Positions 9,600 to 46,031 of a DNA stretch of 64,000 bases are shown piece after piece (position 1 is the stretch's first letter; every line of letters begins with the position of its first letter). The notes beneath the pieces were generated by a model, which worked only from the letters and a program-made list of their open reading frames with translations, did not search any database and was not told the DNA's origin. The DNA is from an uncultured Gemmata sp. (lineage in GTDB: Bacteria; Planctomycetota; Planctomycetia; Gemmatales; Gemmataceae): the NCBI GenBank assembly GCA_937924775.1, contig CALDUT010000012.1, forward strand, positions 1-64,000, given 5' to 3'. The translations under genes and the position numbers were made by a program.

Positions 9600-9630
9600 G
9601 GCGCGAGCCGATGGCCCACCGGCTCGCGCC
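9600..9630. terminator. Perfect 11-bp hairpin between convergent genes
   Basis: The stem 9600-9610 (GGCGCGAGCCG) pairs with 9620-9630 across a 9-base loop. It sits 58 bases past the ketosynthase stop and 78 bases before the end of the convergent secreted-protein gene, so it could end both transcripts. There is no thymine tract on either side, so intrinsic termination is not certain. Confidence 0.5.
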
Positions 9631-9707
9631 CCTTCCATTCTGGCGTACATTTCCAGCGATTCTGTCGTACCGAATAGACTTTTTGCGACAGGATGGACCT
9701 GTCCCAA

Positions 9708-10556
9708 TCACTTATCCAGCAAATCTTCCGCGTAGACACTCTCATAGCGGTATTTTGTGCCTTCGCCCTGATGGTTCATCAGCTCCGTTTGCACCTTCAA
9801 GCGTGCAGCTTGGTAGTGGCCGCTGCGGGTGTTGAAGTAGACCTCGCCGGTCCACAGCAGCGGAATGAGCGGAAGCTGCTCGCTGGGAGTTTTGGGCGGA
9901 TCTTGGAGGGTGGTTTCCAGGCCGGCGGTGAACACACCGGCCGTCGTTGTGCCTTTATCGGTGTACCTCTGGAGAAATTCGTAACTTTCGCCAGTACCCA
10001 GAGGCGGATCGAGCTTCAGGGTGAAACGGCGCTCCCACGTTCCGCCGGGCTGCGGCAGCTTGTCCGGGAATTCGACCCGGAACGGCAGCTCGGCGTGAAT
10101 GCGGGCCGTGTTCCCGCCTTTGGCTTCTTTGATCTCCACAATTTTCCCCAACGGGTCGATCCGTAACACCACAATTGGGGTGTTGAGGTAGTTGGCCATG
10201 GCCTTGGCATCGGCGGGTTTGCTCGAATCGGTGGTGGTCACCGAGCCATCCGGTTGGCGAAATTCGCTTTTCAACTCAGTGATGCTCATTTCCAAGGTCG
10301 CGATACCGTGTTTGTCCACTTCTTTGACCGTCCACTGCCGGACCAAGGCCAAATGGGATTGCGTGGTCGTGGTGGTCGCTTTTTCGGTTTTGTCATCCAC
10401 GGTGGTTTCATGAATGACCGTTTGTTGTACTACGCGATAACGGAGAGTCGCCCCCGGTTGCCAGTGGAAGCGGGGGGCCGCGGCTGCTGGAGCCTGGGCC
10501 GCGGCGGTCCCCGCCAGTCCGACCATGACGCCGAAAACCAACAACTGCCGCATCAT
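9708..10556 (-). CDS. Secreted protein of unknown function (beta-rich)
   Basis: The protein has 282 residues from ATG 10556, preceded by CAGGGAGA at 8 bases; the open frame continues 50 codons upstream but without a fitting start. A signal peptide (MMRQLLVFGVMVGLAGTAAA) is clear. The mature part is strand-rich with alternating charged/hydrophobic stretches (RFHWQPGATLRYRVVQQT, WTVKEVDKHGIATLEMSI). It resembles the DUF6263-type exported proteins common in planctomycetes, but I cannot confirm the family. It is convergent with the ketosynthase gene. Confidence 0.75.
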   Translation of the reverse strand: MMRQLLVFGVMVGLAGTAAAQAPAAAAPRFHWQPGATLRYRVVQQTVIHETTVDDKTEKATTTTTQSHLALVRQWTVKEVDKHGIATLEMSITELKSEFRQPDGSVTTTDSSKPADAKAMANYLNTPIVVLRIDPLGKIVEIKEAKGGNTARIHAELPFRVEFPDKLPQPGGTWERRFTLKLDPPLGTGESYEFLQRYTDKGTTTAGVFTAGLETTLQDPPKTPSEQLPLIPLLWTGEVYFNTRSGHYQAARLKVQTELMNHQGEGTKYRYESVYAEDLLDK

Positions 10557-20036: not shown

Positions 20037-20148
20037 TAGGCTTCGTGAAGAAACGCACTGGTGAAGTTTCTCACGATCGCACGAACATTGGCATTGGTGG
20101 TTTTCAGTGCCAGGGGCGTGCCTTCCGAGATTTTTAGAGGGCTTTTTT

Positions 20149-21171
20149 ATGTCATCCTCTCTCCCAACTCGATCCCGTGCCTTTACGTTGATTGAGCTAT
20201 TGGTGGTGATCGCGATCATTGCGATTCTCATCGGCTTGTTATTGCCGGCGGTGCAGAAGGTCCGCGAGGCCGCCGCGCGGATGCGTTGCCAGAACAATCT
20301 GAAACAACTGGGTTTGGCTATTCACAATTACCAAGATTCGAACAACCGTCTCCCGCGGAACTATCAGCAGGTCGGTGGCAATGTGTGGGAAGCCGTCAGT
20401 GCCAGTGTCCAGATTCTGCCCTACATCGAGCAAGCCCCATTGTATACCCAATTTGAGGCCAACCGGACGAACTGGGGTTTTGTCTATGGCACGCTGTTGA
20501 ACACGGAATTGTCGATTTTCAAATGCCCCTCGGCCCCCGCGGGTCCGCGTCGGGGAACCAACCCCAACGGTTGGGATGGCCCCGGTTCTAACTACGGTTG
20601 GTGTACGGGGAGCTCGATCGAGACGGTGTGGGCTGGCGACCGCTTCAACGGTATGATCTCGTACCAAACCGATCGGCGTTTCGCGGATGTGGTCGACGGT
20701 TTGTCGAACACGATTCTGGCCTCGGAATTCCTCTCGGGGGCGTCGTTCTCCAACAACCCATCGCAAGGCCGCTATCCCTACGACATCTTCTACGTCGGTG
20801 ATGGCCTGTTCAATGCCGTGGCCAACCGCAACTTCCCGACCGTGGCTGAACTGAACGCCATCGGCAGTGCCACGAAGATTGGGCTGCGGTCGAACAATGG
20901 GACACTCTGGGGTTGGTACGCCGCCGCACAATCCACCTTCAACACCGCAGCTCCGCCTAACTGGCAACACCCCACCACCGGTGGCAACTGCTGCCCTGGC
21001 GGCGCGCACGACTGGGGCTTTGGCATCATCCCGCCCCGTAGTGCTCACCCCAATGGCGTCAATGCGGCCTTCGGCGACGGTTCTGTGCGGTTTATTCCCA
21101 ACAACATCGATGTGCTGACCTTCCAATTGCTCGGTCACCGCAACGATGGACGGCCCATCCCGAACTTCTAA
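20149..21171 (+). CDS. DUF1559 protein with type IV prepilin N-terminus
   Basis: The protein has 340 residues from ATG 20149, preceded by AGAGGG at 7 bases. The N-terminus carries the prepilin motif RAFTLIELLVVIAIIAILIG, followed by the planctomycete DUF1559 signature (VQKVREAAARMRCQNNLKQL) and a globular domain with the H-X9-DG-like end (HPNGVNAAFGDGSVRFI). These proteins form a very large family in Planctomycetes; a pseudopilin-like secretion or cell-surface role is inferred. The next gene encodes a small lipoprotein, 28 bases downstream, a frequent pairing. Confidence 0.95.
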   Translation: MSSSLPTRSRAFTLIELLVVIAIIAILIGLLLPAVQKVREAAARMRCQNNLKQLGLAIHNYQDSNNRLPRNYQQVGGNVWEAVSASVQILPYIEQAPLYTQFEANRTNWGFVYGTLLNTELSIFKCPSAPAGPRRGTNPNGWDGPGSNYGWCTGSSIETVWAGDRFNGMISYQTDRRFADVVDGLSNTILASEFLSGASFSNNPSQGRYPYDIFYVGDGLFNAVANRNFPTVAELNAIGSATKIGLRSNNGTLWGWYAAAQSTFNTAAPPNWQHPTTGGNCCPGGAHDWGFGIIPPRSAHPNGVNAAFGDGSVRFIPNNIDVLTFQLLGHRNDGRPIPNF

Positions 21172-41536: not shown

Positions 41537-41631
41537 CCAGAATGCGGACCGCGATATACCCCCGACCCGAGGAAGATGGCCGATAGTCCTCACCATCACC
41601 CGTGTTTTTTCTCTCTCCCCGGAGGCCGCTT

Positions 41632-44600
41632 ATGCGGTTGACTCTCATTGGGATCATCACACTGGTGCCGCTGTGGCCCGCGCTAGCCCAAGCGCCACTG
41701 CCGGACCTCCCCCCGCACCTGGTGGCCCCCACCGATCCGCTGTCGCCGGAGCAAGAACGCCGGCAGTTCCAAGTGCCTCCGGGGTTTGAAGTCCAACTGG
41801 TGGCCAGCGAACCGGACATTCAAAAACCCATGCAAATGGCCTTCGACGCCCACGGCCGCTTGTGGGTCACCACCTCATACCACTACCCCTTCCCCGCACC
41901 CCCCGGCCAAGGCACCGACACCGTCTTTGTCCTGTCCGACTTCGACCCCGAAACCGGCCGAGCCCGAAAGGTACAAAAGTTCATTTCCGATCTGAACATT
42001 CCCATTGGCATTCTCCCCCTGCCTGATGGCCGCTCGGTCTTGGTTTCCAGTGTCGGCGAAATTCGCAAATACACCGATACCAAAGGCGATGGCAAAGCCG
42101 ACACCATGGAAGTCCTTTTCCGCGGCTTCGGTTACGACGACACCCACGGGATGACCAACTCGTTTACGCTTATGCCCGACGGCTGGGTGTACGCCTGCCA
42201 CGGCTTCCGCAACGACAGTATCGTAAAAGGCCGGGACGGTCACGAAGTGAAAATGAATAGCGGCCACACCTTCCGCTTCCGGCCCGACGGTTCGCGGATC
42301 GAAGTGTGGACGCGCGGACAGGTCAACCCCTTTGGTATGGCCATCGACCCCTGGTTCAATCTCTACACTGCGGATTGCCATTCCAAGCCCATCACCCAAC
42401 TGATCCCCGGAGCGACGTATCAGAGCTTCGCCAAACCGCACGACGGCCTCGGCTTCGCCCCGCACGTCACCGCGCACGCCCACGGCAGCACCGGGCTGTG
42501 CGGCGTCGCCTGGTACGATGCCGACCACTTCCCCGCCGAATACCGCGGCACGATGTTCGTCGGCAATGTGGTGACCAACCGCATCAATTTCGATCGCATC
42601 GAATGGAAAGGGGCCAGCCCGGTGGCGAAGGAGTTGCCCGATTTCCTGGTCAGCCCCGACCGGTGGTTCCGCCCGGTCGATATCAAACTCGGCCCAGATG
42701 GAGCCTTGTATATCGCCGATTTCTACAACAAAATCATCGGTCATTATGAAGTCGATTTGAAAGACCCGCGCCGCGATAAAAACCGGGGCCGGATCTGGCG
42801 GATTGTCTGGAAAGGCCGGGATGGGAAGGCCCCCAACCCCGCGTTCCACCGCCGCGACTTCACCCAGGCCAGCAACGACGAACTCGTCAACGACTTGTTG
42901 CACTCGAACCTGACGGTGCGTTTTCTCGCCGGGCATCAACTGCTCCACCGCATCGCCCAAGGAACCGGGCCGACACAGGCGTTCGGCGAATCCCTGGTGG
43001 CCAAACTCGCCGCCCACCCCGAACGCGTGTCGGAATTTCTTGGCTGGGCGGCCTGGGCGGAGGAAGCCCGCCGCCGCAACCAACCGCTGGCGATCGACGA
43101 ATACCGGGCACTGCTGAAATTCGCCACATCGCCCGATCGTGTGGCCCTCAAGCCCGAGCAGCTCACCGGCCACCTCACCCGGGTGTTGGCCAGCCGAACG
43201 TCGTGGAGCCCCGACGAGCGGCAATTCCTCCGCGAACGGCTGGACGCGTCCGCCTCCGTGCATGAAACTCGGGCCTGCGTCGAGGCGATGATCCTTCACC
43301 CGCATGCCGACTTCATCGACCCCTTGGTGAAATTGTTCAACAGCGCCGACCCAGACGATACCCACCTACGGCACGCGGTGAAAGTCGCCCTCCGCAATAG
43401 CTTGCGGAATCACGCAACGTGGCCTGAAAGCCGTGATCCGCTCTTTGTCGAAATCGCCCTGGCGCTGGCTCAGCCGAAAGCCGCGCACTATCTCGCCACT
43501 CGCATCCACACCCACACGCTTCCCGCGGACAAATGGCCCCCCACCGCCGAACACATCGCCCGCTACGGGACGGCGGCCGACGAAGACATCCTCTTTCAGG
43601 CCCTCCTCCAGAACCGCCAGAGCGAGTCGCTGCTGGCCGCGTTCCGGGGGGTGCAGGCCCGCGGTCAACCCCTCAGCGCAGAACGCACCCAAAGCCTCAT
43701 CCGCGAAGCTGAAGCCGCTCTGGCCAAGGACCTGCGACCGGACACCATCCCGGACCTCCGGTGGGCCCTCCGCCTGCTGAACGCCCTGCCGCCGGTCGCT
43801 GATCGGACAGAACGCCGTCTCAGCCCCGCAGCCCTCCAACGGCTCGAAGAGTGGCTAGCTCACACAACAGCCCCTGACGAAGTGCGCCTGGGAGCAGCGG
43901 AAGTCTTGCTCAGCTATGCTCCGGCCGTGGCCGTCCCGGCCATTCGCCGCCAACTGGCAGATACCGCCACTCCGGAAGCCGTTCGGACCGGGCTTCTACT
44001 GGCCTGCGCCGCGTCCCACAACACCGACGCCCTGCTCGACGCCCGCGACGCCTTGGCCACGCTGCCCTACCGCCTCGCCGTCCCCATCGCCACAAGCTTC
44101 GCCAGTACCAAAATGGGGGCCGAAGTTCTCCTCGATGCCGTCCGCGCAGGTAAAGCCCCCGCCCGGCTCCTGCAAGAACGAACCATTCTCGAACGCCTGC
44201 GGGCCTCCAATGCCGACGGCTGGCAGAAACGGGTGGCCGAACTGACCCAAAACCTGCCCCCCGCCGACCAACGCATCGCCGCAGCCATCAAAGACCGCAT
44301 CAGCGGTTTTGCCCAGGCGAAACCCAACGTGGCCGAAGGGGCAAAAGTCTTCCACAAACATTGTGCCGCGTGTCACAAAATCGGCGACCAGGGCGGGAAA
44401 ATCGCCCCCCAGCTCGACGGCATCGGGATTCGCGGCGTCGAACGGTTGCTGGAAGACATCCTCGACCCCAACCGCAATGTCGACTCAGCCTTCCGCGCCC
44501 GGGTCATCACGCTGACCAACGAGCAAACCCTCACCGCACTGATGCTGCGGGTCGAAGGACAAGTGCTGGTCGTGGCCGACCTCGAAGGCAAAGAACGCCG

Positions 44601-44748
44601 CATCCCACTGGCGGAGATCGCCAGCAACCGCGAAACCCAACTGTCGGCGATGCCCGCCAACTTCGTCGATACGATCCCGGAAGCGGAGTTGTACCACCTG
44701 TTGGCGTATTTGTTGGAACAACGCCCCCGGGAATCAGCCCCGAAGTGA
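41632..44748 (+). CDS. PVC-type heme-binding CxxCH protein (propeller, HEAT-like, cytochrome c)
   Basis: The protein has 1038 residues from ATG 41632, with GGAGG 6 bases upstream; a GTG at 41602 is rejected. A signal peptide (MRLTLIGIITLVPLWPALAQ) leads to a membrane-bound-dehydrogenase-like beta-propeller at residues 45-420 (VPPGFEVQLVASEPDIQKPM, FGMAIDPWFNLYTADCHSKP, GPDGALYIADFYNKIIGHYE). A helical repeat middle follows, and a C-terminal cytochrome-c domain with CAACH at residues 911-915 and the heme-ligand context APQLDGIG. Such giants are a hallmark of planctomycetes and are proposed to carry out periplasmic oxidation of complex sugars. Confidence 0.95.
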   Translation: MRLTLIGIITLVPLWPALAQAPLPDLPPHLVAPTDPLSPEQERRQFQVPPGFEVQLVASEPDIQKPMQMAFDAHGRLWVTTSYHYPFPAPPGQGTDTVFVLSDFDPETGRARKVQKFISDLNIPIGILPLPDGRSVLVSSVGEIRKYTDTKGDGKADTMEVLFRGFGYDDTHGMTNSFTLMPDGWVYACHGFRNDSIVKGRDGHEVKMNSGHTFRFRPDGSRIEVWTRGQVNPFGMAIDPWFNLYTADCHSKPITQLIPGATYQSFAKPHDGLGFAPHVTAHAHGSTGLCGVAWYDADHFPAEYRGTMFVGNVVTNRINFDRIEWKGASPVAKELPDFLVSPDRWFRPVDIKLGPDGALYIADFYNKIIGHYEVDLKDPRRDKNRGRIWRIVWKGRDGKAPNPAFHRRDFTQASNDELVNDLLHSNLTVRFLAGHQLLHRIAQGTGPTQAFGESLVAKLAAHPERVSEFLGWAAWAEEARRRNQPLAIDEYRALLKFATSPDRVALKPEQLTGHLTRVLASRTSWSPDERQFLRERLDASASVHETRACVEAMILHPHADFIDPLVKLFNSADPDDTHLRHAVKVALRNSLRNHATWPESRDPLFVEIALALAQPKAAHYLATRIHTHTLPADKWPPTAEHIARYGTAADEDILFQALLQNRQSESLLAAFRGVQARGQPLSAERTQSLIREAEAALAKDLRPDTIPDLRWALRLLNALPPVADRTERRLSPAALQRLEEWLAHTTAPDEVRLGAAEVLLSYAPAVAVPAIRRQLADTATPEAVRTGLLLACAASHNTDALLDARDALATLPYRLAVPIATSFASTKMGAEVLLDAVRAGKAPARLLQERTILERLRASNADGWQKRVAELTQNLPPADQRIAAAIKDRISGFAQAKPNVAEGAKVFHKHCAACHKIGDQGGKIAPQLDGIGIRGVERLLEDILDPNRNVDSAFRARVITLTNEQTLTALMLRVEGQVLVVADLEGKERRIPLAEIASNRETQLSAMPANFVDTIPEAELYHLLAYLLEQRPRESAPK

Positions 44749-44884
44749 CCTGGGCTGAAAACGCTGCAACCTCAGCACTGGCTTGCACTTAGGCGGAATT
44801 TTCCAGCCAAGTACCCGGGATTGTGTGTTTTTTTTCGGAATTCGGGGGCCATTCCGCGAGATGGGCCCCCGGTGCTGTCAGTAT

Positions 44885-44890
44885 TATAAT
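44885..44890 (+). promoter_or_regulatory. -10-like TATAAT upstream of the sigma-like gene
   Basis: TATAAT sits 38 bases before the GTG start of the sigma-like gene. No convincing -35 hexamer was found 17 bases upstream, so the promoter may use an alternative factor. An 8-bp GC hairpin at 44843-44871 lies immediately before it. Confidence 0.35.
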
Positions 44891-44927
44891 GTCGAAAGGT
44901 TCGCCATTGCTCCGTGAAGGATAGACC

Positions 44928-45548
44928 GTGAATCGTATGACCCGTTATCTGCCGTCACAACGATCGTCGCGGAATGTGATGGTCGCGGTGGTGCTGGGCA
45001 CAGCGCTTGTGGCCACGCCGGCCAAGGCCGCCGTCGCCAGCAAAACCGGCACCGCCCCCGCGCCCAGCCCGAAGGCCGTGGCCGACATTACCAAATACTG
45101 TCAAACCTGCTGGCGGAATGCCCGGCTGCCGGCGGATCGCTGGTCCGATTGTACGCAAGCGGTCTTTGTTCGCCTGCTGGAACGGGTCGATGCCGACAAA
45201 TGGAGTACGGTTCTGGTGGATCGGGAAACGGCCGAACGCCGGGAATTTCTCCGCGCCATCGACGCCGTCAAGAAACGCACACAGCGGGCGCGTAAGTTCA
45301 CCAGTCTCGCGCCCGATCTGCCCGAACGAACCCGCGTCGCCAACACCACCCGCGACGACCGCGAAGCGGTGGCCCACGCCGCGGCCGAACACCTCAGCCC
45401 CCGGCAACGCCGCATTCTGGAATTGACCGCCGACGGTTGGCCCATTCCCGAGATTGCCGCGGAGCTGGGCACCACGGCGGAGCGCGTCAGCGACGAGAAA
45501 TACAAAGCGATCAAGAAACTTCAGCACGTTTTGGGAGTCCATTCCTGA
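44928..45548 (+). CDS. Sigma-70-like protein with signal-peptide-like N-terminus
   Basis: The protein has 206 residues from GTG 44928 (AAGGAT 6 bases upstream) or 203 from ATG 44937. Residues 18-35 form a hydrophobic segment (VMVAVVLGTALVATPAKA) preceded by basic residues and followed by an AxA site, a textbook export signal. The rest resembles an ECF sigma factor: region-2-like WRNARLPADRWSDCTQAVFV, and region 4 HLSPRQRRILELTADGWPIP then IAAELGTTAERVSDEKYKAI. Sigma factors act in the cytoplasm, so this combination is odd. A GTG near 45076 would give a leaderless form. Confidence 0.75.
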   Translation: MNRMTRYLPSQRSSRNVMVAVVLGTALVATPAKAAVASKTGTAPAPSPKAVADITKYCQTCWRNARLPADRWSDCTQAVFVRLLERVDADKWSTVLVDRETAERREFLRAIDAVKKRTQRARKFTSLAPDLPERTRVANTTRDDREAVAHAAAEHLSPRQRRILELTADGWPIPEIAAELGTTAERVSDEKYKAIKKLQHVLGVHS

Positions 45549-45683: not shown

Positions 45684-46031
45684 ATGAGAATGGCAACCCT
45701 TGGTGCAACGGCGATCACTGTTGTGGCTCTGTCCGTCGCTACCGCGTCGGCTCAACCGGGGCGGGTGGTTGTTGTGCCCGCCGGCGGCTTCCAACAAAAC
45801 AATTTCTTCCGCGTCACCCCGATTGTGCCGGTGGCGCCGGTGTGCCCACCGGTGCTGCAACCAGCATGGGGCTGGAACTACAACACCTTCGGCTTGACGG
45901 TCGCTCGGCCCACGTGGAGTTTCAGCATTGGTTCTGGCACGGTCAGTCCGTTGGTAACTCCTTTCTACAACTATGGTTACAACTACGGCTGGGTCGCACC
46001 GTACCCCTTCCATCTGGGCCGGCGCTGGTGA
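45684..46031 (+). CDS. Small secreted protein, aromatic/Gly/Pro-rich
   Basis: The protein has 115 residues from ATG 45684, with GAGGAG upstream; the frame to 45621 is not needed. A signal peptide (MRMATLGATAITVVALSVAT then ASAQ) is followed by a short mature protein rich in Tyr, Trp, Phe, Pro and Gly (PAWGWNYNTFGLTVARPTW, YNYGYNYGWVAPYPF). The aromatic/Gly pattern suggests a surface or matrix protein. No domain is recognised. Confidence 0.7.
   Translation: MRMATLGATAITVVALSVATASAQPGRVVVVPAGGFQQNNFFRVTPIVPVAPVCPPVLQPAWGWNYNTFGLTVARPTWSFSIGSGTVSPLVTPFYNYGYNYGWVAPYPFHLGRRW

Follow-up and report, generated by a model that had tools for sequence, protein, structure and literature searches.

In a stretch of 64,000 nucleotides from an uncultured Gemmata sp. 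(contig CALDUT010000012.1; the whole stretch is here called the window), we found a gene that encodes, as judged by its sequence, an ECF sigma factor with a divergent region 2 and an N-terminal leader of the export type. Alignments of the relatives show that the leader is translated, is conserved across families, has the anatomy of a signal peptide with a sequence-specific hydrophobic core, and stands ahead of an intact sigma2-sigma4 pair. We propose, with a probability of about 0.4, that the protein is an orphan ECF-type sigma factor of Planctomycetia in which a Sec-type targeting signal at its own N-terminus would take the place of an anti-sigma factor in keeping it latent. This latency reading covers both a conserved targeting signal and sigma surfaces that are conserved as if they met polymerase and DNA. 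The features of the gene are as follows.

44856..44890, + strand: conserved promoter-like element, GCGAGAT (44856-44862) followed by TATAAT (44885-44890)
44916..44921, + strand: Shine-Dalgarno-like GAAGGA, 6 nt before GTG 44928
44928..45548, + strand: open reading frame of the leadered ECF-type sigma factor, 206 aa from GTG 44928 or 203 aa from ATG 44937
44937..44939, + strand: ATG (M4), conserved family start codon, M4 in 98% of 55 aligned members
44937..44975, + strand: basic n-region MTRYLPSQRSSRN (aa 4-16), R15 in 80% of members
44976..45014, + strand: hydrophobic segment (h-segment) VMVAVVLGTALVA (aa 17-29; 13 residues), conserved residues, pN/pS 0.24
45021..45029, + strand: AKA, signal peptidase I site predicted after aa 34 (AKA/AV) by a home-made score
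45069..45299, + strand: sigma region 2 domain (aa 48-124), pLDDT mostly >90 over aa 50-123, pN/pS 0.09
45078..45080, + strand: internal GTG (V51), which would remove the leader; rejected as start, with no Shine-Dalgarno-like sequence and no conservation as a start
45099..45152, + strand: cysteine set C58 (45099-45101), C61 (45108-45110) and C75 (45150-45152), conserved in leadered members
45363..45536, + strand: sigma region 4 HTH domain (aa 146-203), by Sigma70_r4_2 (3.1e-9) and Foldseek

Sigma domains and their conserved surfaces

The protein matches the NCBIfam model TIGR02937 (sigma70-ECF) over aa 57-201 with 54.8 bits against a cut-off of 42.9, while in Pfam it matches region 4 alone (Sigma70_r4_2), and none of the 55 family members matches Sigma70_r2. 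The identity of region 2 is supported by the TIGR02937 match, by the family profile, which aligns with the genome's other ECFs through both domains at 98% probability (hhalign), and by the predicted structure. AlphaFold2 gives confident sigma2 (about aa 48-123) and sigma4 (about aa 140-202) folds, and the best PDB match in Foldseek was M. tuberculosis SigL in a transcription initiation complex, with a TM-score of 0.73 of the target for the SigL sigma4 domain.

The constraint on these domains is strong. In the alignment of 55 members, residues D74, Q77, V79, R82, L83 and L84 of region 2 are at least 95% conserved and R186, S188, D189, E190, K191, Y192 and K193 of the recognition helix at least 90%, and few parts of the protein are as well conserved as the core-binding motif DCTQEVF..RLL and the recognition helix of sigma4. 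Every region of the gene has a pN/pS below 1 within the genus, with values of 0.09 for sigma2 and 0.17 for sigma4. Since such constrained sigma surfaces would be hard to explain in a protein that never meets DNA and polymerase, the conserved core-binding and HTH surfaces favour a cytoplasmic role at some stage. Region 2.3 of the window protein reads FLRAIDAVKKR in place of what we take to be the usual WL..IA.N...D..R, without the usual ECF tryptophan and asparagine, and promoter melting or recognition of the -10 element may therefore differ. The source genome has more than 30 sigma70-type matches, among which this protein alone represents its family.

Start codon, leader and upstream element

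The gene is a single open frame of 206 codons at 44928-45548 (+), and an in-frame TAG (44922-44924) lies directly ahead of the GTG at 44928. Because M4 is so highly conserved (98%), ATG 44937, and not GTG 44928, is the start codon of the family on the aligned sequences; the leader is included from either start. The initial annotation had pointed to an internal GTG, which we place at 45078, in frame just ahead of sigma2, as a start that would remove the leader, and had suggested checking whether all homologues begin there. They do not: between the h-segment and the YC motif of sigma2, 41 of 79 non-redundant relatives have no ATG, GTG or TTG at all, and such a codon with a Shine-Dalgarno-like sequence occurs in 2 of the 79. 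Indeed, within the genus the leader has pN/pS values of 0.39 in the n-region, 0.24 in the h-segment and 0.43 in the c-region, which show that the leader is translated and under purifying selection. We therefore give next to no credence to translation from the internal GTG, with the leader as an untranslated or misannotated artefact; it is refuted family-wide by these results, by M4 and by the conserved promoter-like element that closely precedes the long start.

This element, of the form GCGAGA[AT]-N18/19-TATAAT, was found 30-60 nt upstream of many orthologues; in the window, the spacing is 22 to TATAAT, or 19 to TATTAT. As a sequence motif, it agrees with a transcription start just ahead of the long, leadered start codon. 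Its left box is unlike TTGACA, and its fuller form is GCGAGA[AT]-N18/19-(gtcSg)TATAAT. The GTC ahead of TATAAT can be read as an ECF-type -10 element, so that autoregulation of the sigma gene is possible. A regulon sharing the element was considered and rejected: there were 0 exact matches in the gene's own genome, and in the same-genus genomes exact GCGAGA[AT]/TATAAT matches away from the sigma gene were few, near the control level. In the closest relative (L117, about 9610-10420; G012 contig C15, 34468-35270), about 770 nt separate the promoter element from the sigma gene. This stretch contains repeats of the form GTCGCGGCCG...GAGCTTGG along with two or three small ORFs, and looks as if a cassette had been inserted.

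The window protein has the n-h-c anatomy of a Sec/SPI signal peptide with an AxA site, and the basic residues of its n-region are R6, R12 and R15. We scored the leader with a home-made n/h/c signal-peptide score, trained on 30 E. coli signal peptides from general knowledge and evaluated by leave-one-out. The window protein scored 13.0, near the 14.4 +/- 3.9 of real E. coli signal peptides and well above the other ECFs of the genome, which averaged 1.2 with a maximum of 8.4; sigma-domain segments scored -2.5. The mean of the leadered family was 11.0, and 65% of its members lay above the 10th percentile of the E. coli signal peptides. AxA-like ends recur as the sequences diverge (NA/AD, SA/AT, DA/AV, HA/GA, QA/SE; the slash marks the end of the leader). 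In Isosphaeraceae (L102, L104, L109 and similar), the end ALTAQA/SETDLV is strongly conserved, with almost no linker before sigma2. A Tat signal was rejected, the RR pair being present in part of the family and missing from the window protein, and so was a lipoprotein signal, as there is no conserved lipobox. The leader was also rejected as a part of the sigma fold: in AlphaFold2 it lies outside the confidently folded domains, with a pLDDT of about 50.

A basic-hydrophobic leader is present in all 79 of the non-redundant relatives, from Gemmataceae, from Isosphaeraceae as a second family of that order, and from a few other Planctomycetia, and a layout that recurs in 79 of 79 relatives is beyond chance. 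Taken with the TIGR02937 match and the leader score, this confirms the sigma protein with an export-like leader that the initial annotation had described. In the alignment of 55 members, A20 (95%), V22 (80%), G24 (87%), A26 (80%) and L27 (87%) of the h-segment are conserved, whereas the n- and c-regions are variable. As a control, a 12-residue core of the h-segment was compared, at matched domain divergence, with the leaders of two exported protein families that are encoded in the window and in the same set of genomes. At domain identities of 0.5-0.8, the identity of the core was 0.56-0.74 against 0.30-0.45 in the two control families; below a domain identity of 0.5 the gap narrowed to 0.37-0.44 against 0.32-0.35. 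With these two controls, the comparison points to some sequence-specific constraint on the core, which might come from helix packing, from a protease or from a partner.

The net charge of the family averages +3.06 in the 15 residues before the h-segment and -0.34 after it, and is higher on the N-terminal side in 76 of the 79 members and equal on both sides in the remaining three. By the positive-inside rule, this bias predicts an N-in/C-out orientation, which would put sigma2 and sigma4 on the far side of the membrane if the leader were inserted.

Cysteines, relatives and gene neighbourhood

The leadered proteins carry a set of three cysteines. In the motif Y-C58-x-x-C61-W ... D-C75-T-Q, C58 is conserved in 100%, C61 in 91% and C75 in 98% of the 55 aligned leadered members; one distant leadered member (L113) has no C75. 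Extra cysteines occur in sigma2 of the Isosphaeraceae proteins L102, L104, L109 and similar (DCTQEVCC). At 22 loci in Isosphaeraceae, leaderless sister proteins do not have the first two cysteines (YLxRxW) and often keep the third. As YC..CW is absent from these leaderless paralogues, the leader and the cysteines go together. In a quick tree, leadered (support 0.64) and leaderless (0.93) proteins formed separate clades, which together were monophyletic with respect to the genome's other ECFs (0.97). The leaderless sister clade (L249-L268, L029, L030) has long Ser/Thr/Ala-rich N-terminal extensions with a recurring 'WD.AL', and no YCxxCW. The turn that joins helices 48-64 and 69-86 is at about the same distance from C58 as from C75, which makes a disulfide between the two cysteines geometrically plausible.

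Single matches to the protein were found in 17 of 18 same-genus genomes at 72-90% identity, the nearest relative being a Gemmata sp. metagenome genome, and the leadered family is mostly single-copy. There were matches in most genera of Gemmataceae, in Isosphaeraceae and in scattered other families (family names inferred); Limnoglobus roseus, Zavarzinella formosa, Singulisphaera acidiphila and Gemmata sp. IIL30 are among the carriers with a name. In a sample of the class, 126 of 298 genomes had a match, part of these weak. The sampled rest of the phylum gave weak matches only, with 8 candidates scored per genome, so that absence from outside the class is a weak result.

In about 60 loci, each covered to 5-6 kb on either side, there was no conserved neighbour; antisense ORFs aside, each neighbour family occurred at 8 loci at most. 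No linked anti-sigma factor or protease was conserved in these neighbourhoods, as surveyed with a crude ORF caller that lost the target gene itself in 14 of 61. With no conserved neighbour gene, no cognate anti-sigma factor was found. An adjacent anti-sigma gene is common for ECFs and not obligatory, and many accepted ECFs are without one; an unlinked anti-sigma factor is also conceivable here. In the window, the upstream neighbour (41602-44748) encodes a large protein that is predicted to be exported and has a c-type haem motif, and the downstream neighbour (45684-46031) a small predicted exported protein (MRMATLGATAITVVALSVATASA/QPG). The protein encoded at 20107-21171, elsewhere in the window, has an N-terminus like that of type IV pilins and seems to belong to the DUF1559/SBP_bac_10 type, which is expanded in planctomycetes.

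Possible roles of the leader and comparison with known systems

A sigma factor can work only where it meets RNA polymerase, in the cytoplasm. The conservation of the leader across the relatives suggests that the cell may control this sigma by sending it to or through the membrane. In the latency reading, the nascent chain would be directed to the membrane, and the sigma domains would be held at it or moved across it, away from RNA polymerase. Target genes would be transcribed only when the sigma stays in or returns to the cytoplasm, either as targeting fails or as the leader is cut. C58 and C75, perhaps with C61, might form a disulfide, redox or metal site in the non-cytoplasmic or stressed state. 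Several points speak against latency: a cleavable signal in the N-in/C-out orientation puts a sigma where it is unable to work, so that the reading has to suppose a dual fate or a step of release; individual residues of the h-segment need not be conserved in a generic latency signal; and region 2 is divergent (Sigma70_r2 in 0 of 55), sigma activity being a prediction. A narrower proposal, which we consider slightly more unlikely than the pro-sigmaK-like tether discussed below, is a sensor of secretion competence. The sigma would be made continuously with a functional Sec signal and be removed, by export or degradation, while export works; when export or insertion is impaired, full-length or leader-trimmed sigma would stay inside and switch on a response.

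The same leader can be read in other ways, and both ideas of the initial annotation, a sigma stored at the membrane and freed by proteolysis and a repurposed DNA-binding protein, are still candidates. If the protein were fully exported, its sigma fold would have been put to another use outside the cytoplasm, in the periplasm or in membrane invaginations, where it might bind DNA or protein as a domain stabilised by a C58-C75 disulfide. The canonical signal-peptide layout, with AxA ends that are kept through divergence, and the charge asymmetry that puts the C-terminus outside in 76 of 79 members would fit, as would the cysteines that go with the leader (the first two are missing from the leaderless paralogues) and a region 2 too divergent for Pfam Sigma70_r2. 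Full export is nevertheless rather doubtful: DCTQEVF..RLL and the sigma4 recognition helix are highly conserved, as expected of a working transcription factor, and the distant leadered member L113 is without C75. It is unlikely that the leader is a tether like that of pro-sigmaK, holding the sigma at the cytoplasmic face of the membrane until a site-2 protease, a rhomboid or a similar enzyme cuts in or near GTALxA to give active sigma. The short bilayer-spanning pro-sequence of pro-sigmaK, cut by SpoIVFB, is a precedent (PMC11486902), and the sequence-specific h-segment with its small residues, the conserved sigma surfaces and the lack of an anti-sigma neighbour agree with a tether. However, the pro-sequence of pro-sigmaK is N-out/C-in when engaged by SpoIVFB (PMC11486902), while the charge bias here predicts N-in/C-out (76 of 79); furthermore, a tether would have no need of AxA signal-peptidase-like ends, and no protease gene is linked. 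Least expected of these readings is that the hydrophobic helix makes no contact with the membrane and instead binds a partner, or acts as a degron, within a cytoplasmic sigma, which we hold to be improbable. Conservation of the segment at residue level does exceed that of ordinary signal peptides (two control families), and N-terminal extensions whose function is unknown occur in several ECF families of planctomycetes (PMC8103513). But a basic n-region, 12-13 strongly hydrophobic residues and AxA ends make up the anatomy of a signal peptide, and the AlphaFold2 model does not fold the leader with the sigma domains.

A conserved export-type signal on a sigma factor would mean either a new kind of switching, by where the sigma is sent, or a sigma fold with a job outside the cytoplasm, and either would be new. 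The question is directly testable, since the leadered proteins are short, mostly encoded by a single copy, and found in cultured strains, the four carriers named above. We know of no sigma factor recorded as being sent to the membrane or exported for its control in such a form. Our literature search turned up neither an ECF sigma with a reported signal peptide nor relevant work on exported sigma factors; the main ECF classification papers lay outside this search, and prior notice is possible. Detergent-soluble fractions of Tuwongella immobilis, which is related to Gemmata, yielded sigma factors, ECFs among them (PMC8567305); by analogy, this would indicate only that an association of such factors with membranes is not far-fetched in this group.

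Like the known ECF sigmas (TIGR02937; M. tuberculosis SigL, BldN, AlgU and E. coli sigmaE as structural matches), the window protein has sigma2 and sigma4 only, a core of about 160 aa and a full-length profile match. Unlike them, its family has no Sigma70_r2 hit, carries YCxxCW...DCTQ and an export-like leader, and has no anti-sigma neighbour. In eukaryotes, ATFS-1 of C. elegans is a transcription factor with an organelle-targeting signal, and failure of its import switches it on. It is a functional analogy only, being a bZIP factor subject to mitochondrial import, and to our knowledge no bacterial sigma factor is controlled in this way; the secretion sensor, if true, would be a bacterial counterpart of ATFS-1 in one protein, with no anti-sigma factor. 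The closest working analogy for latency by tethering is given by pro-sigmaK and pro-sigmaE of Bacillus subtilis, in which a short N-terminal membrane-directed pro-sequence is carried by a sigma factor (PMC11486902); they differ from the window family in that they are not ECFs, have no AxA signal-peptidase-like site and act in sporulation. IutY (ECF243) and ECF48/52/53 are C-terminal membrane fusions of ECF sigmas, and some ECF36 proteins have an N-terminal extension with 3-4 transmembrane helices and DUF2275 (PMC8999054). They share with our reading of the window protein a self-contained membrane regulation without a separate anti-sigma factor, but are multi-domain anti-sigma fusions, whereas the window family has a short signal-like leader and no anti-sigma domain. 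Regulation of ECFs through N-terminal extensions is a planctomycete feature without mechanistic data, and the former ECF87-89, planctomycete ECFs with such extensions, are unstudied in their regulation (PMC8103513). Compared by description only, these groups resemble the window family in having an N-terminal extension, which in their case is not described as a signal peptide (PMC8103513). By its mode of control, the window family is probably a new variant of the ECF sigma factors.
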